Below, in pieces: positions 8,538 through 24,373 of a stretch of DNA of 24,373 nt. A program made the position numbers and the translations under genes. Origin of the DNA: an uncultured Bacillota bacterium (GTDB taxonomy: Bacteria > Bacillota > Clostridia > Peptostreptococcales > Anaerovoracaceae); NCBI GenBank assembly GCA_946408315.1, contig CAMJRV010000003.1, positions 1 through 24,373 on the forward strand. The letters run 5' to 3'. Positions within the stretch are counted from its first letter, which is position 1; each line of letters begins with the position of its first letter. The notes under the pieces were generated by a model. That model saw only the letters and a program-made list of their open reading frames with translations, ran no database searches and was not told the origin of the DNA.

Positions 8538-8565
8538 ATTATAGACCTAAATTTTTAAAAGTAAA
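8538..8565 (-). promoter_or_regulatory. Promoter of the atp operon
   Basis: On the minus strand a perfect -10 box TATAAT (8538-8543) is preceded, after a 16-bp AT-rich spacer, by TTTACT (8560-8565), which matches four of six consensus -35 bases. The likely start point is about 30 bases before the atpI start codon, giving a short leader with no room for a riboswitch. This supports atp as a transcription unit separate from the upstream wec/MATE genes. Confidence 0.7.
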
Positions 8566-8607
8566 GTATCGTTAAAAAATAAACATTCTGAAAATTGTGC
8601 ATACGTC

Positions 8608-8655
8608 AAAAAAACCGCGCCAATCCATTGATTTCAACCGGTTTGGCGGGTTTTT
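8608..8655 (-). terminator. Terminator after the MATE gene
   Basis: On the minus strand, arms CCCGCCAA (8643-8650) and TTGGCGCGG (8615-8623) pair with one bulge around a loop of about 19 bases, followed by seven T. It closes the yhbY-to-MATE run before the atp promoter. A T run on the opposite side also makes it potentially bidirectional. The rest of the 8511-8768 gap holds only the atp promoter. Confidence 0.75.
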
Positions 8656-8768
8656 CCACATTTTAGGCCATGCTAAATTCCGAGAAATAATTCTAAAATC
8701 TAACCTTTTTGCTATATTTAAGACACAGGGCTGCCATAGTGCAATTTTGCAGCTGCGAGAGTCCCTTT

Positions 8769-10136
8769 CTACATATCGTGCACCAGGTTGTTCAGCCATT
8801 TTTTAGAGCAGAACCGCATCCTGCAAATGATGATTTTTACCACTTCCTCCGTCTGGGCCATCAGCACCACGAAATAGATCGGCAGCGACAGGTAGAGAGC
8901 GCCGAAAAACACCAGAGGCACCCCAATCAGCCAGACAGAGCCTACCTCGACGCACATTGCGAATCTGGTATCCCCTCCGCACCGGAAGGTTCCTACGATA
9001 TTCAGGCCGCTGTATACCTTGAGAGGCATGAAGGCGCCGTAAATGCACAGGATAAAGAGTGCGTAGCGCTGCCCTTCCGCCGTGAAATTGAACAGCAGGA
9101 TGATAAACCTCGACGTCAGGATCAGAAGGCCGCCCGAAACGATGCCGACGAAAAACCCGATCCTCAGGAGCCGTTTCGCCAGGGCAAAGGCATAGTCCAT
9201 CTGCCCCATGCCGATCCGCTGGCCGACAAGGATGAGCAGAGCGTCTCCCAGGCTGAATATGGCCAGAATAAAGAGCGTATTCAAGGTATTGCTCGCCTGG
9301 ACGGCGGCAAATTCCGTAATCCCCATTCTGCCGTAAGCGGCATTGTAGGTAGCCATACCGAGGCTCCACATCGTCTCATTGATCACGACGGGAACCGCCG
9401 TGATCAGGATTCTCGTCACCATCGGTCTGGCCCAGCCGAAGAATTCTCCGAATTTCCCGGAGAGCAGGTTTTTCCGTACAAAGATCACGTAGAGATAAAG
9501 GCAAAGCTCGGTAAGTCGTGCGATGGCGGTGGCCGTTGCCGCTCCTTTTACTCCCATGGCCGGAGCGCCGAAGTACCCGAAGATCAGGATAAAATTCAGC
9601 ACGGTGTTGATGGAAAAGATCACAGCGCTGATCTTCAGCGGAATGCTGGTCTGCTGGGTCGCCCGCAAGGACGCCGACAGGGGATAGGTGATCCCCAGCG
9701 TTAAAAAGCATATGGCTGCGATTCTGACGAAATCTTTGCCCAGGTCGATGACCTCCGGGATATCGGTAAACAGCCGCAGGACCTTTTCCGGAATCAGGAC
9801 GGCGGGAAGGAAGAACAGCATGCTGATACTGAAACAGACCAGAACCGCAAAGCCGACTACCTTCCTGATGCTTACCAGATCCTTCTTTCCCCAGAACTGG
9901 GCCATAAAGGCCGAAGAGCCGCTGGCAAATCCGAACATGACGCCCAGATGCACAAAGAACAGCTGGGTAGAAAGCCCTACGGCAGCCAAATCCACCTCTC
10001 CGAGACTGCCGACCATCAGGTTGTCAAGCAGGTTCAGCGAAGAAGTAATCAGGCTTTGCAGGGCGATGGGCAGGGCCACTCTTGCGAGGGTCCTGTACAG
10101 TGATTTATTTTCTATTATAATTGGCTTGGTTTCCAT
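8769..10136 (-). CDS. MATE family multidrug/metabolite exporter
   Basis: Integral membrane antiporter of the MATE (NorM/MepA-like) family, which exports cationic or other compounds in exchange for Na+ or H+. About 12 membrane helices fill its 455 residues in two homologous halves; near the N-terminus the family pattern PIALQSLITSSLNLLDNLMV is clear. The frame opens at 10172, but the METKPII start (10134-10136) is preferred because the longer version adds a polar stub unlike the family. Even so it overlaps the end of wecB by 32 bp with no strong ribosome binding site, implying coupled translation. Substrate unknown. Its place after the wec genes may mean only shared transcription, although flippase-like roles cannot be excluded. 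Confidence 0.88.
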   Translation of the reverse strand: METKPIIIENKSLYRTLARVALPIALQSLITSSLNLLDNLMVGSLGEVDLAAVGLSTQLFFVHLGVMFGFASGSSAFMAQFWGKKDLVSIRKVVGFAVLVCFSISMLFFLPAVLIPEKVLRLFTDIPEVIDLGKDFVRIAAICFLTLGITYPLSASLRATQQTSIPLKISAVIFSINTVLNFILIFGYFGAPAMGVKGAATATAIARLTELCLYLYVIFVRKNLLSGKFGEFFGWARPMVTRILITAVPVVINETMWSLGMATYNAAYGRMGITEFAAVQASNTLNTLFILAIFSLGDALLILVGQRIGMGQMDYAFALAKRLLRIGFFVGIVSGGLLILTSRFIILLFNFTAEGQRYALFILCIYGAFMPLKVYSGLNIVGTFRCGGDTRFAMCVEVGSVWLIGVPLVFFGALYLSLPIYFVVLMAQTEEVVKIIICRMRFCSKKWLNNLVHDM

Positions 10137-18333: not shown

Positions 18334-18362
18334 TTGATCCCGACTCGCGCAGGTGTTAAAAT
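18334..18362 (+). promoter_or_regulatory. Candidate promoter of the TRAP binding-protein gene
   Basis: TTGATC (18334-18339) and TAAAAT (18357-18362) are separated by 17 bp, matching four and five consensus bases. This gives a leader of about 37 bases to the preferred start at 18406. A second TATAAT at 18303-18308 lacks a convincing -35 box. The 278-bp region 18128-18405 otherwise holds only the divergent yhbY promoter. Confidence 0.45.
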
Positions 18363-18405
18363 TACTTCACAGGATACAGCCGTTAATCATGCGGGAGGAA
18401 TGGAA

Positions 18406-19464
18406 ATGAGAAATCTAACTTTCATTGCAATCTCACTATCATTAGCGCTTATCCTCTCCGTCTTTGCCGGCTGTGCCGACAAGAGCGAGGATGAAGAAGC
18501 GGGGACGATCCCTGTGAAGCCCCTTGTTTTCAAGCTTGCATCGGATGCGCCGATGGAGCATATGGCATCCGAGCTGAATCAGGAAGCCTGCGAAAAGATC
18601 AAGGAAAGGACCGAGGGCAGAGTCGTCATCCAATATTATCCCGAAAGCCAGCTGGGCAGCTACGAAACCGCCTATGAAAAGATCGTCGCGGGCGACATCG
18701 ATATCGGCCAGATCAGCGTTCCCGACTTTCTGGACCCCCGGCTGGGGGCGGCCTATCTGCCCTACTATGCGATCAGCTTTGAGGAAGCAAAAATCCTGTA
18801 TGCTCCCGAATCCTATATGAGTCAGATTTTCAGCGAATTGACGGCGGAAAACGACGTAAGGTTTATGGGCTGGCTTCTGGAAGGCTTCGTCGGGATCGGC
18901 GTCGTCAAGGAGCCCACAAAGCCGATGGTTCCGGGCGCCGACAAGGGCATCCGATTGAGGGTCCCGACAATAACAAGCTTCCGGTACGCGGCGGAGGACC
19001 TGGGCTATGAGCCGGTCACAATCACCTACGCGGAGGTGCCCACAGCCATGAGGACAAACGAGGTCGACGGCTGGCTCGGAGGGACCTCCAACATGAACTA
19101 TGCATGGGTGGGAGATATCATCAATAAACTGTATGTAAATTACATCTCTGCGGAAGCTACCTGCTATGTGATGAGTGAAAAAAGTCTGGCGAAGCTTTCC
19201 GAAGAGGATAGGCTGACTGTAATCAACGTATTCCGCGAACAGAGCCTCCAAAGCTTTGAACGCGCCAAAGCCAACGAAGAGCGATATAAAGAGAAGCTTC
19301 GGACGGATTACGGCGTCGAAGTAATAGAGCCGTCAAAGGACGAACTCGCCGCCAACGCCGAATACATCCGGAATAAAACCTGGACCAGGTTGGAAGAGGT
19401 TTTTACCCCCGAATTGATCGAAGGCTTCCGTGCTGAGGTGGAAAAGCTGAACACACCGAACTGA
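18406..19464 (+). CDS. TRAP-type solute-binding lipoprotein (DctP family)
   Basis: Extracytoplasmic binding protein of a tripartite ATP-independent (TRAP) transporter, which captures organic acids such as dicarboxylates. The 352 residues begin with a lipoprotein signal (hydrophobic 4-20, box VFAGC, lipidated C23) and continue as a DctP fold: LASDAP, YYPESQLGSYETAYEKIVAGDIDIGQ (77-102), GIRLRVPTITSF with the probable carboxylate-binding R185, and ANAEYIRNKTW near the end. The ATG at 18406-18408 is preferred because GGGAGG lies seven bases upstream; an in-frame ATG two codons earlier abuts that site, and frames further upstream begin in the promoter. No DctQ or DctM membrane subunit gene is nearby, so it is an orphan in this window. 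It has its own terminator. Confidence 0.9.
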   Translation: MRNLTFIAISLSLALILSVFAGCADKSEDEEAGTIPVKPLVFKLASDAPMEHMASELNQEACEKIKERTEGRVVIQYYPESQLGSYETAYEKIVAGDIDIGQISVPDFLDPRLGAAYLPYYAISFEEAKILYAPESYMSQIFSELTAENDVRFMGWLLEGFVGIGVVKEPTKPMVPGADKGIRLRVPTITSFRYAAEDLGYEPVTITYAEVPTAMRTNEVDGWLGGTSNMNYAWVGDIINKLYVNYISAEATCYVMSEKSLAKLSEEDRLTVINVFREQSLQSFERAKANEERYKEKLRTDYGVEVIEPSKDELAANAEYIRNKTWTRLEEVFTPELIEGFRAEVEKLNTPN

Positions 19465-19591: not shown

Positions 19592-20734
19592 TTACCCGAT
19601 CTGTTTCATCGTCCTGACCTTGCCGCGGTAGATCCACATTCCCACAGGCAGCCAGAAGGCCGCAAAGAACGCGCCTCCCAGGAGGAAATGGCCGAGAACG
19701 CCGAACCCGGCTCCCTTAAGCAAAATCTCCTTTAACGGATTGCTGTAGAAGTAAAGAGGCCACAACAGTTTCATCCCTGCGGCAAAGCCGGGCGCCATCA
19801 TAAACTCGGGCCAGCCATACCCGCAGGACAGCATGGTGGGGATCGCCAAAAACATGATAAACTGCGCGCAGTGCGTCACATCATCAAAAATCGCAGCCAG
19901 GATAAAGGCCATTCCGGTCAGGCAGGTCAGAAAAATCACCTGAATGAGCAAAATCAGCAGCAAACTCCCCTTCAGCGGATAGGAAAACAGCCAGTGAGCG
20001 ATCAGCAGACAGGACAGGGAGCAGAGAAAGGACATTCCCCCATACCGAAAAAACAGAGGCATCATTTCTCGCGCCCGAATCCTTCTCGACAGAAGGTCCA
20101 TCGGCATGTGTTTCAGCCGTTCCTTTTCCTTGAGCAGAACCGGCGTCAGCACGTTCAGATAGGTCTGCTGAATAAAAACTCCAAGCAGCCCCGGATAGAG
20201 GTAATAAAAGTATCCGAGCTGCGGATTGTACATCGTCCTGTCGACCAGCGCCAGCGTGTCGAGACTTTGCTCGGAAGCATAGGCAGCGACGCCACCGGCT
20301 TCCAGGTAAGAAATCTGGAGTTCGCTGTTCTTGGCGGTAAAAATCTTATTGGCATACAGCATGAGATTATTGCCGACCAGAAAATTGGAACCGTCCATCA
20401 GCATCAGCGCCTTCGTCCCCTTATGGGACCCAATGGACTTTCCGAAGCCGTCAGGAAGAACGAGTCCGCCTTTGATCGTCCCCATCAGAATCTCTTCCCG
20501 GATCTCCTCTGCGGAAGACGCCGCATCCACGATCTGGAAGACTGGGCAGGCCCGGAATTCATCGACGATCTCCCGGGACGCATCGGATTCATCCAGGTCC
20601 AGTATCACGATCGGGATATCCTCCACGAAAATAGGGCTCATCGCCCCGCCGAACAGTAGGGTAAAACCGATGGGAATGAAGACGAGGATGAGAATCGGCT
20701 TGTATTTTTGAATCAGTCCCACGATCCATTTCAT
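19592..20734 (-). CDS. ABC-2 type export permease (second of pair)
   Basis: Membrane permease of the ABC-2 (ABC2_membrane_3, YhhJ/YbhR-like) type. The 380 residues have an N-terminal membrane helix (about 12-32), a large outside domain (about 35-180) containing VILDLDESDASREIV, and five or six membrane helices at the C-terminal end, with the GYGWPEFMMAPGF loop in the second half. It follows the first permease with a 4-bp overlap (ATGA), so the two probably form a heterodimer. No nucleotide-binding domain is fused to it and none is encoded downstream. Substrate unknown. Confidence 0.88.
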   Translation of the reverse strand: MKWIVGLIQKYKPILILVFIPIGFTLLFGGAMSPIFVEDIPIVILDLDESDASREIVDEFRACPVFQIVDAASSAEEIREEILMGTIKGGLVLPDGFGKSIGSHKGTKALMLMDGSNFLVGNNLMLYANKIFTAKNSELQISYLEAGGVAAYASEQSLDTLALVDRTMYNPQLGYFYYLYPGLLGVFIQQTYLNVLTPVLLKEKERLKHMPMDLLSRRIRAREMMPLFFRYGGMSFLCSLSCLLIAHWLFSYPLKGSLLLILLIQVIFLTCLTGMAFILAAIFDDVTHCAQFIMFLAIPTMLSCGYGWPEFMMAPGFAAGMKLLWPLYFYSNPLKEILLKGAGFGVLGHFLLGGAFFAAFWLPVGMWIYRGKVRTMKQIG

Positions 20735-21861
20735 GCGCTCACCCCCTTACGCTGCACCAGAAAGAGAAGTCCAAGCTCCACAGCTCCAAAGATGCACATC
20801 ATTTCGATGGCGGGCAGCAGATGATGGAATTCCAGCGGCTTGAGACAAAGGTTTCTGACCGCCTCTCCATAATAATAGAACGGCAGGAACCGGGCAAGCT
20901 TCTGAAAAAACGCCGGCATTGCCAGCACAGGCCAGGTGTAGCCCCCCAGAATGGTGGTGGGAAGCACGATAACGGCTGCAATCTGCGTCGCAAGAGTTCT
21001 GTCCGTAATTACCGTGCCGACGATATAGCCGGCCATCAGCGTCACCGTGGAAAACAGCAGGGTAACGGCCGCGCCTCCCAAAAGCGTCCCTTTATAGGGC
21101 ATATCGAAAAACAGGTATTGCTCCGCCAGGGTCAGCGCGATGGAAATCGCTCCGAGCAGACCCCAATGGCAGATGGTTCTGATATGCGCCAGGAAGGGAG
21201 TCGTTTTCTCCCTCATTTCCCCGGCGCGCTCCGCTCCCATACAGGCGATTCCCACCTGAATCAGGGCGGCCAGCATGCCCGGCAGGATAAAGTTCCTGAA
21301 GTTTCTCGTCGGATTGAACAGCAGGCGGTAGGTAACGTCGATGGGGATCGCGTGATTTCTCACATCCGCCGGCACCACGCCAAGCTTTCCTTCATAGATT
21401 TTCATCATATAACCCGTTTTCAGGGTCAGCAAGATTTCAGTCATTGCCGACTTGGATGAGGACATGACGGCCAGCGTCGAACCGTCATAGACGGTAAGAA
21501 TTTTCGGAGCCTTTCCTTCCCGCATATCGCTGTAGAAGCGCTCGGGGATAATGATGCCGACATAGGCTTGCTGCCTGTAGAGCATTTCCTCGACCCGCCC
21601 GTCGTAGTCCGCCTGTTCCACGACCTTAAAATACTCGCTTTCCTCCACGTACTTCACGAAGCTGCGGCTGAAGTCGGAATGATCGTGATCCACCACCACG
21701 GTGGGAATGGACATGGCTACGTTGCTGCTCATCTCATAGCCCAGAATCAATCCTGTCGCCAGCGGTACCAGGATAAAGACGAGAAAAGTCATGACCCGTT
21801 TCGGATGTCTCTTCTTATACCGGTAAAAGAATGCCGCAAAACCTTCAAGCCGCTGTCTCAT
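20731..21861 (-). CDS. ABC-2 type export permease (first of pair)
   Basis: Paralogue of the adjacent permease with the same plan: 376 residues, N-terminal helix (about 24-42), outside domain with TVVVDHDHSDFSRSFVKYV (54-72), then about six C-terminal membrane helices including the GGYTWPVLAMPAFF loop. The matching loop (GYGWP) and DxDxSDxSR motif in both proteins show common descent by duplication. It overlaps the HlyD-like gene upstream and the second permease downstream by 4 bp each. Confidence 0.9.
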   Translation of the reverse strand: MRQRLEGFAAFFYRYKKRHPKRVMTFLVFILVPLATGLILGYEMSSNVAMSIPTVVVDHDHSDFSRSFVKYVEESEYFKVVEQADYDGRVEEMLYRQQAYVGIIIPERFYSDMREGKAPKILTVYDGSTLAVMSSSKSAMTEILLTLKTGYMMKIYEGKLGVVPADVRNHAIPIDVTYRLLFNPTRNFRNFILPGMLAALIQVGIACMGAERAGEMREKTTPFLAHIRTICHWGLLGAISIALTLAEQYLFFDMPYKGTLLGGAAVTLLFSTVTLMAGYIVGTVITDRTLATQIAAVIVLPTTILGGYTWPVLAMPAFFQKLARFLPFYYYGEAVRNLCLKPLEFHHLLPAIEMMCIFGAVELGLLFLVQRKGVSA

Positions 21862-22820
21862 TGCTGTTTCCCGTCGATTTTTCCAAGGTTGACCATGACC
21901 GTCATTCCCGGGTAGACGTCCTTATTCACGTCGAGCAGCTCAATTTTAACTCCGTAGGAAAGCACGTCAAACTCTCCGTTGTTGTTCGTCGCCCGCTTCG
22001 TTGCAAAATCTGGTTTTTGATTTACATTTACGATCTTCCCCTGAAACGTATTGTCCGGATATGCCGCAATCGTAACTGCGACCTCTCCGCCCCGGTGTAC
22101 CATTCCGAGATCGGTTTCCTTTACGTTGATTTCAATATACGGCTTTTCCTTGCTTGTCAGGGTAGCCAGCGGCATTCCCGAGGAAATCAGCTCCCCTTCG
22201 CTGACATTCAGCGAAGTGATGGTTCCGTCCATAGGCGCTTTGATCACTGCGTCATTCAGATAGCTCTGCACTTCCTGCTCTGCCGCCTTCGCCTGGGCGA
22301 CCAGCGCTTCCGCAGCCGCCTTATCCTCTTCCCGCGCGCCCTGGGCCGCCATCTCATAGGTTTCCTTCGCCGCGGTATACTGGGCAAACGCCTGATCATA
22401 TGTATTTGCAGGAACGGCTTCCTGCTCATAAAGTGTCTTGATCCTCTGATACGTCTTCTCCGCCAGATCAAATCCCGCCTTTGCCTGAGCAACCTCCTGG
22501 CTTCTGGCTCCGTTCAGCGCCTTCTCGTACTGGGCCTGGGCCGCAGACGCAGCGGCCTCCGCCTGCTGCTTTTTTGCCTGGATGCTCTCGCTTCCGATCA
22601 CGATCAGCGTATCGCCCTTTTTGACCTCCTGGCCTTCTTTCACCAGGGCCTGTTCGATGATCCCCGGGATTTTCGCGGTCAGATCGATTTCCTCCGTCCG
22701 AATATTGCCCTGAACGATGAGTTCATCCTGTCCGGACCCGTGGACCTGAACGAGGGCGAAGATCGCACACAAGACGATTACAACAGAAACGATGAGAACC
22801 GGCGTCCTGTATTTTTTCAT
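21858..22820 (-). CDS. HlyD-family membrane fusion (adaptor) protein
   Basis: Periplasmic or extracytoplasmic adaptor of a tripartite-type exporter, linking inner-membrane permeases to a TolC-like conduit. The 320 residues have one N-terminal membrane anchor (7-26), a split lipoyl domain (GKIPGII-type half at about 48-76 and AVIKAPMDGTI at 191-201), an Ala/Gln/Glu-rich coiled-coil hairpin (about 77-187) and a beta-barrel domain (about 225-312). The hairpin is long enough to engage a TolC-type helical tip. AAGGAG lies nine bases before the ATG. The stop overlaps the permease start. Confidence 0.93.
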   Translation of the reverse strand: MKKYRTPVLIVSVVIVLCAIFALVQVHGSGQDELIVQGNIRTEEIDLTAKIPGIIEQALVKEGQEVKKGDTLIVIGSESIQAKKQQAEAAASAAQAQYEKALNGARSQEVAQAKAGFDLAEKTYQRIKTLYEQEAVPANTYDQAFAQYTAAKETYEMAAQGAREEDKAAAEALVAQAKAAEQEVQSYLNDAVIKAPMDGTITSLNVSEGELISSGMPLATLTSKEKPYIEINVKETDLGMVHRGGEVAVTIAAYPDNTFQGKIVNVNQKPDFATKRATNNNGEFDVLSYGVKIELLDVNKDVYPGMTVMVNLGKIDGKQQ

Positions 22821-22864: not shown

Positions 22865-24079
22865 TTACAGCGGCAGTCTCTGGATTCCGACGTCCTCCGC
22901 ATACCCGAAGGCGTACACCGCCAGATCATAATCCGAGGTGGCGGCAGCTACGGCAAGCCCCGCCTTATAGACGTTGCCCTGGGCGGTCTGAAGCTCCGCC
23001 AGAGTCGACATGCCGGATTCATAGGAGATGCGAATCAGCCGGCAGCCCTCTTCCGCGTAGGTCTTCACCGCTTTTGCCGCTTCCAGCGCCGCCTTTTTAT
23101 CCTCCAGCTCCGCAGCCTTGTTTCGAATATCGATTTCAATCTGAACGGGAGCATCCTTAGCTGCTTTTTCGGCAGACAGCAGCGCGACCTGCTCTTTCAT
23201 ATAGGTGGACGAGTTGGTCGGATATCTCGATTCCAGGTTATCTAACAGAACCTTATGCACCTCTACCGCAAAATTTGCTCCTTTTATTTCATTCCTGTTT
23301 TCCAGCGCTTTTTTGATCGAATCTTCCACGGTGATGGCCGGAGGCGTCACGGCGGTCAGCGAATCCGTAAAGATTACCGTCTGGGTTGCTTCATATCCCA
23401 GGAGGTAGTTGAAGCTCATCTTCGCGTATTCCAGTTTGGTCTCCGCCGCCCGCACTCCGCTTTTGGCCGACGTGACTGCCGACTCGGCGGAAAGTACGTC
23501 TTTCTTTGCAAGCATGCCCGCCTGGTATTGGGCCTTCGTATTCTTCAGGATATCCTCCTGGGTTTTCAGGTTATCCCGCTCCGTCTTCAGGTTCTCTGAA
23601 GCCAGAAGCACACCGTAATACAGCTTTAACGTATCGTACTCGATCTGGTTCATTTCCGACTTATAGTTCGGCTCCATCTGCTGCTTTGCAAAATCCCGGC
23701 GCAGCCGCAGTACGGCCCGGTTCGCCTTTGTAGCCCCTGCATTCTGGGCCTCCCAGCTGGCCGACGATGCGAGGGATGGCGCTGCGCTGTTCAGAAAATC
23801 CAGGGTCCTCAGCGTCTCGTTGATCGTCTGAATCGTCTCCGTGTACCCTTCGGCGATTGCCCGGTCGGCTTTTTTGTTCAGCTCTGCTGTCTGGGCTCTG
23901 GCGCCTGTGGTCTGCATGATTTTGACCGCTTCCGCAAGGGACAGCTTGACGTCCGCCTTGGCCGGCTGTTCCTTCTGGACCGGCTGCTCCGCCTTGACCG
24001 GCTCATCGGCGTAGGATGCGGTAGCGCTGAAAATCAACAATAACGCTGCGGCGCAGCAGCATATTTTCTTCTTCATCAT
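22865..24079 (-). CDS. TolC-family efflux conduit protein, barrel strands apparently lost
   Basis: A 404-residue TolC-like protein (OEP family). It has a signal peptide (cleavage probably after ASYA, residue 24), a Lys/Glu/Pro-rich linker (25-44) and two helical repeats. Each repeat has the family's helix-turn tip: YQAGMLAKKDVLSAE (185-199) and YESGMSTLAELQTAQ (353-367). Between the helices, where TolC has pairs of long beta strands that form an outer-membrane barrel, the first repeat has only a Ser/Ala-rich stretch (about 97-115) and the second a short segment (283-297). The GTG nine bases upstream is rejected: an AAGG site fits the ATG at 24077-24079 with an eight-base gap. It is first in the operon. 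Confidence 0.85.
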   Translation of the reverse strand: MMKKKICCCAAALLLIFSATASYADEPVKAEQPVQKEQPAKADVKLSLAEAVKIMQTTGARAQTAELNKKADRAIAEGYTETIQTINETLRTLDFLNSAAPSLASSASWEAQNAGATKANRAVLRLRRDFAKQQMEPNYKSEMNQIEYDTLKLYYGVLLASENLKTERDNLKTQEDILKNTKAQYQAGMLAKKDVLSAESAVTSAKSGVRAAETKLEYAKMSFNYLLGYEATQTVIFTDSLTAVTPPAITVEDSIKKALENRNEIKGANFAVEVHKVLLDNLESRYPTNSSTYMKEQVALLSAEKAAKDAPVQIEIDIRNKAAELEDKKAALEAAKAVKTYAEEGCRLIRISYESGMSTLAELQTAQGNVYKAGLAVAAATSDYDLAVYAFGYAEDVGIQRLPL

Positions 24080-24145
24080 TCTTTTCACCTTCTTTGTTTG
24101 TCAACACATGACGACTATCTTTACAGACGTGCAAATATAATTTAT

Positions 24146-24248: not shown

Positions 24249-24373
24249 ATGACGGAATCAAACAAGAATAAGAAAGAAGACTTGCGAGTGCGAAGGACCC
24301 ATAAGCTTTTATCCCAGGCCCTGCTGTCCCTTCTTTTGGAAAAGCCTTTTGAAGAAATCTACGTTACGGATAT
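24249..24373 (+). CDS. TetR/AcrR-family regulator, N-terminal fragment
   Basis: Only the first 41 codons lie in the window. After a basic, Lys-rich start comes RVRRTHKLLSQALLSLLLEK then PFEEIYVTD, the first helix and the lead into the helix-turn-helix of TetR-type repressors. An AAAGGA lies about ten bases before the ATG. It is divergent from the TolC-HlyD-ABC2 operon across 169 bp, the usual arrangement for a local repressor of an efflux operon, so control of that operon is the most likely role (inference). The gene continues beyond the window. Confidence 0.8.
   Translation, partial: MTESNKNKKEDLRVRRTHKLLSQALLSLLLEKPFEEIYVTD

Follow-up and report, generated by a model that had tools for sequence, protein, structure and literature searches.

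The TolC-like gene and its product

In this study, we analysed a 24,373-nucleotide stretch of DNA (the window; contig CAMJRV010000003.1) from an uncultured Bacillota bacterium of the family Anaerovoracaceae, which carries near its end a gene for a TolC-like protein next to genes for an HlyD-type adaptor and two permeases. The window comes from a fragmented draft genome (589 contigs, 67% complete, 3% contamination). The open reading frame (ORF) of the TolC-like gene begins at a GTG codon. An in-frame ATG at position 24,079, giving a product of 404 amino acids, is the likelier start because AAGGTG precedes it at a plausible ribosome-site distance, and the gene boundaries of the original prediction (22865..24079), which had been made from the sequence letters alone, are therefore correct. 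The parts of the gene and its product are as follows.

22865..24088, minus strand: TolC-family (OEP) protein, no barrel strand pairs modelled; ORF from GTG, 407 amino acids
24008..24079, minus strand: signal peptide MMKKKICCCAAALLLIFSATASYA (residues 4-27) without a lipobox, identified by eye
23945..24007, minus strand: Pro/Lys/Glu linker DEPVKAEQPVQKEQPAKADVK, residues 28-48, read by eye
23729..23851, minus strand: repeat-1 equivalent of a strand pair, residues 80-120, Ser/Ala-rich, uncertain helices, varies among relatives
23492..23524, minus strand: hairpin tip 1, residues 189-199, QAGMLAKKDVL, conserved
23210..23230, minus strand: repeat-2 equivalent of a strand pair, a 7-residue turn, SRYPTNS, residues 287-293
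22991..23023, minus strand: hairpin tip 2, residues 356-366, YESGMSTLAEL, conserved

The TolC-like identity held up, as the Pfam family PF02321 (OEP) matched the protein in two stretches with an E-value of 3.6e-17 and 63.2 bits (curated cut-off 22). The predicted fold has the helical staves of TolC and OprM appeared among its fold matches; a phmmer search of the PDB sequences returned no match. In an alignment with TolC, the long helices are retained, as are the two hairpin tips; the helix-turn tips described in the original prediction align to those of TolC itself. The signal peptide and the charged linker named there were also recognised. A scan for promoters and terminators was uninformative, since it gave five promoter-like sites where 3.3 were expected.

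Strand segments of the two repeats

In the second repeat of the window protein, the turn SRYPTNS alone occupies the place of the two long strands of TolC. The spacing between R265 and G359, which bracket this segment, is 94 residues, compared with 134–145 in five references, namely three Escherichia coli proteins (TolC, 145; CusC and MdtP, 135–136) and two OEP proteins of genome bin G017 (134–135). The short turn is not a chance feature, because Y289, S293 and Y296 are near-invariant (at least 90% of 26 rows), with Y289 invariant in a 23-row set. The first repeat is different, as its segment is Ser/Ala-rich, with a spacing of 141 residues versus 145 in TolC. The claim that both inter-helix segments are short thus stands for repeat 2 and fails for repeat 1, where only the composition was as described. 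Repeat-1 spacing ranged from 101 to 171 across proteins of the same family and order and did not distinguish the barrel-bearing references from the Clostridial proteins, which is why the case for a deletion rests on repeat 2.

The single-chain structure prediction of the window protein contained no barrel strand pairs, its repeat-1 segment being modelled at low confidence as uncertain helices with two isolated bridge residues (predicted local distance difference test, pLDDT, 52–60). None of the four strands per protomer that characterise an outer membrane factor in the strict sense was modelled, nor was there any sign of the 12-strand barrel that would have contradicted the original prediction. 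In the single-chain model of a relative (L087), the repeat-1 segment is a 9-residue turn (pLDDT 73–78) joining two long helices. Together with the recurrence of the repeat-2 deletion in relatives, these models suggest that no barrel strand pairs remain in the TolC-like protein, as had been proposed, and that here the second segment alone is short.

The repeat-2 deletion was found far beyond the window. Spacings of 89–99 residues were measured in 46 of 47 Clostridial proteins of the family and order set (ORFs of ≤330 amino acids, with masked X residues, or sharing their last 200 residues with another ORF were left out); the exception was a broken ORF (L058) with a spacing of 21. For the class Clostridia, one stretch was taken from each of 20 of the 58 OEP-positive genomes, picked to cover many families, and 29 ORFs matched at E ≤ 1e-5. 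Spacing was 84–100 in 25 of the 26 ORFs counted at E ≤ 1e-10, the other being L119 (164), while the three uncounted ORFs had spacings of 141 (L102), 76 (second ORF of L117) and 149 (second ORF of L109). The L119 ORF (L119:1085-3268) encodes a 728-residue OEP protein of genome G133, for which neither SLH nor CW_binding_2 appears among the matches listed. In genomes G078 and G077 the whole OEP profile was matched in one repeat, yet repeat-2 spacing was 94 (L103, L104). Among the matches listed, long strand-aligned repeat-2 segments came from two genomes only: G017 (L069, L070), which is also the sole Omp85-positive genome of the relatives set, and G145, where OEP was matched across nearly the whole profile on a 3.3-kb contig (L102, the ORF with a spacing of 141). 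In both cases the long-segment OEP proteins, and in G017 also the Omp85, probably represent Gram-negative contamination of the bin. Judged by sequence spacing, the repeat-2 deletion is near-universal in the Clostridia sampled.

Host envelope, gene cassette and wall domains

The search for BamA, LptD and lipid A genes suggested with the original prediction was carried out in the host's own genome and in sets of relatives that include Sinanaerobacter, Bacilliculturomica, Anaerovorax and Clostridium aminobutyricum. Omp85 was detected neither in the own genome (0 of 1) nor in any of eight genomes of the same genus, of which one consists of a single contig, nor in 60 of 61 genomes of the relatives set or any of 196 genomes of the class, and 7 of 14 control genomes were positive. 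LpxC was absent from all 61 genomes of the relatives set (4 of 14 controls positive). LptD was not found in the own genome, a weak negative because the control matched just 2 of 14 known genomes; all own-genome negatives are weak in that this genome is only 67% complete. A diderm host was rejected on these scans, which returned neither Omp85 nor LptD in the own genome (the finding that would have contradicted the original prediction), and the host cell is very probably monoderm.

The genes that accompany the TolC-like gene are listed below.

21858..22820, minus strand: HlyD/RND-type (resistance-nodulation-division) adaptor whose hairpin tip, RIKTLYEQEAVP, is an RLS-type docking motif with P at the S position
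20731..21861, minus strand: ABC-2 type permease (ABC2_membrane_3; ABC, ATP-binding cassette)
19592..20734, minus strand: second ABC-2 type permease (ABC2_membrane_3)
24249..24373, plus strand: beginning of a divergent regulator gene that runs past the window end; TetR-like by eye

A gap of 44 bases separates the TolC-like gene from the adaptor gene, and the permease genes overlap their neighbours by a few bases. This set of an HlyD adaptor and two ABC-2 permeases is as in ABC-2 tripartite exporters; the best NCBIfam model of the adaptor (NF002939) was matched far below its cut-off, and both permeases matched the RbbA model, also below its cut-off. The cassette appears to be a native resident because a one-contig genome of the same genus (L045) has the same succession of the four cassette genes, a TetR gene and the genes beyond them. 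The order shared with L045 is cassette, YhbY-like gene, YdcF-like gene, TruA, MTHFR and MetH, and L037 shares it from the cassette to TruA (names outside the cassette assigned by eye). The window regulator resembles by eye the L045 gene at 8565-9191, which is TetR by Pfam. Between its cassette and the YhbY-like gene, the window has a gene for a TRAP-type (tripartite ATP-independent periplasmic) solute-binding protein (18334-19464, plus strand; DctP-like by eye), where L045 has only ~420 bases.

In nine distinct loci (the window, L037, L043, L045, L048, L078, L080, L082 and L083, some cut by contig or window ends; L074, L075 and L077 repeat L043, L037 and L048 and were counted once), neither a regular expression nor a profile built on four MacB-type ATPases picked out an ABC ATPase close to the cassette. 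In L083 a Walker-A protein adjoins the permeases, and the ATPase profile does not match it. The cassette resembles the YbhG/YbhFSR and YhiI-RbbA-YhhJ exporters in having an HlyD adaptor with ABC2_membrane_3 permeases; it differs in the lack, at all nine loci, of a recognised ATPase of the dedicated YbhG/YbhFSR operon type, whose part an ATPase in trans may play. Gene order differs among the cassettes: most open with the TolC-like gene, L048 and L078 end with it, and in L080, L082 and L083 it is separated from the others and lies behind the regulator. In L080 (7858-8166, 102 amino acids) and L082 (7838-8200, 120 amino acids), a small ORF without a Pfam match separates the regulator from the HlyD gene. 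The same genus also carries sets of a TolC-like protein, an HlyD adaptor and an ABC ATPase, MacB-type by eye (L034, L036, L042, L046), so several pump types would seem to share such ducts.

Proteins of the S-layer type are present in the host, whose own genome had 77 SLH matches. In the relatives set, SLH was found in all 36 OEP-positive genomes versus 9 of 25 OEP-negative ones (Fisher p 1e-8, shared ancestry ignored). The corresponding class counts, among the matches listed, were 50 of 58 versus 73 of 138 (p 9e-6), and 53 of 58 versus 80 of 138 (p 2e-6) for SLH or CW_binding_2, again ignoring kinship; as PF02321 weakly matches adaptors too, these OEP-positive counts may include genomes with an adaptor only. 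Five of the 58 OEP-positive class genomes (G093, G133, G199, G201 and G246) had neither domain among the matches listed, from which it follows that an S-layer of these types is no strict requirement. By these markers, the statement in print that S-layers always accompany such proteins describes a strong tendency rather than a rule. Domain scans of relatives (two sets of 10 chosen proteins each) showed SLH repeats fused N-terminal to the OEP part in L051, L054, L055, L058 and L087, and a Cu_amine_oxidN1 domain ahead of it in L066, L068 and an own-genome paralogue (L031:9980-11452, contig C12). In the window protein, the Pro/Lys/Glu linker lies in the place that corresponds to these domains. In a tree of 71 rows, with L063 assigned to the Cu_amine_oxidN1 group by likeness to L068, the SLH label changes at least three times, even counting starred branches alone, and the Cu_amine_oxidN1 label once; the three SLH changes may be one gain and two losses.

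A candidate exit duct in a probable monoderm

The TolC-like protein probably serves a single-membrane Clostridial cell as the exit duct of a tripartite-type exporter, retaining the duplicated hairpin and the long helical staves but no barrel strand pairs. Three copies would most likely form a helical tube of ~100 Å, the length of a helix of 64–69 residues at 1.5 Å per residue. This would suffice to cross the zone beneath the wall and to enter the wall, though perhaps not to traverse it, and alone such a tube would not span a thick wall. Its proximal tips would dock onto the HlyD adaptor at the adaptor's hairpin tips, and the adaptor in turn would sit upon the paired ABC-2 permeases. Nine of 11 Clostridial adaptors have R-x3-L-x6-S/T at the hairpin tip (P replaces S/T in the window, A in L083), corresponding to the RLS docking motif of MexA-type adaptors (PMC4446572), and tip-to-tip docking is the natural reading because the duct tips are conserved as well. 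The permeases would load a substrate, possibly a small or lipid-like molecule under TetR regulation, energy may come from an ATPase encoded elsewhere or from another source, and the blunt distal end would open in the wall or S-layer zone. BAM (β-barrel assembly machinery) would not be needed for a barrel-free tube, since there is no barrel to insert.

Several observations weigh against an exit duct of this kind. The repeat-1 segment is poorly modelled and TolC-like in length, the structural support comes from single-chain models with the trimer and complex built on them by reasoning, no ABC ATPase was recognised at the window cassette, the window adaptor is without the S of RLS, the Pfam scan recognised no wall-binding domain in the window protein, and the five OEP-positive class genomes without SLH and CW_binding_2 (among the matches listed) loosen the tie to an S-layer of these types.

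The alternative that fares best, although we regard it as doubtful, is that the protein is lodged in the S-layer lattice by a barrel-like remnant of hydrophilic character at its end, a proposal made for Clostridioides difficile (PMC8809574). The enrichment of SLH genes in OEP genomes favours such lodging; however, neither of the two modelled proteins (window, L087) has strand pairs for a barrel end, the repeat-2 deletion is general, and the five genomes lacking both markers (among the matches listed) are not expected from it. It is rather unlikely that the protein is instead an extracytoplasmic stalk or scaffold that lengthens the adaptor between membrane and wall with no open duct, for example in substrate shielding or sensing. 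Gram-positive adaptors have been described without an outer-membrane partner (PMC5985334, PMC4446572) and a trimer is here a matter of extrapolation from single chains, but a closed 12-helix tube requires the two tips, the staves and a two-repeat symmetry, all of which the protein retains. A truly diderm organism with a hidden or degenerate barrel is very improbable: the own-genome negatives are weak, but none of the eight same-genus genomes, the single-contig one included, has Omp85, LpxC is absent in 61 of 61 genomes, and the same deletion runs across the class set. That the window is a mis-binned contig of another organism, conceivable in so fragmented and slightly contaminated a draft, is scarcely credible given the gene order shared with L045 and L037.

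That monoderm Firmicutes have re-used the tripartite design has been published before. A 2022 study (PMC8809574) reported TolC-like proteins in these bacteria, with 12 examples and a homology model for C. difficile, and covered pump operons, the lack of BamA, omission of the barrel in that model and a model of S-layer location. The window protein, a secreted OEP protein (signal peptide by eye) with pump partners in a BamA-less Firmicute, belongs to this kind, sharing OEP repeats, secretion, tripartite pump partners, no BamA, barrel omission and S-layer association. It differs from the published model, which has a hydrophilic barrel domain with an omission and is set in the S-layer, in having no modelled strand pairs at all. 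Beyond what that article presents in its main text, where neither "SLH" nor "fused" appears, our analyses add this modelled lack of all strand pairs, the near-universal repeat-2 deletion in the Clostridia sampled, the fusions to SLH and Cu_amine_oxidN1 domains, a test of the SLH link by genome counts, including its exceptions, and a cassette without a recognised ATPase. A table in PMC9145396 places an OEP Pfam domain in a protein of Filifactor, a Gram-positive. The literature searched, which had most subscription journals and all preprints outside its reach, yielded no further study on the subject. The Gram-positive MacAB-like systems YknXYZ and SpMacAB (PMC5985334) are similar in pairing an adaptor with a transporter in a monoderm, but the parts of that source concerned with them describe no exit duct, whereas the window cassette has a duct gene. 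E. coli TolC (1ek9), CusC and MdtP, as well as OprM, share the two hairpin repeats, helical staves and tip regions with the window protein; they carry the strand pairs for a 12-strand outer-membrane barrel, and none were modelled in it.

More tentatively, Clostridia may use a barrel-free TolC lineage as wall ducts, held by SLH or other wall domains, either as fusions to the mid-tube or as its partners, and driven in some cases by ABC-2 permease pairs without a dedicated ATPase. Such proteins could be TolCs stripped when the outer membrane was lost, or pre-barrel survivors between adaptor and outer-membrane factor. If the barrel is wholly gone, the question raised in PMC8809574 of how TolC-like proteins assemble in cells without BAM dissolves, as there would be nothing to insert. 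The proposed duct also offers a testable picture of how exported compounds cross the wall and S-layer of single-membrane cells, and, again if the barrel is gone, its loss (or late gain) would be a possible marker of the monoderm/diderm transition in Firmicutes.
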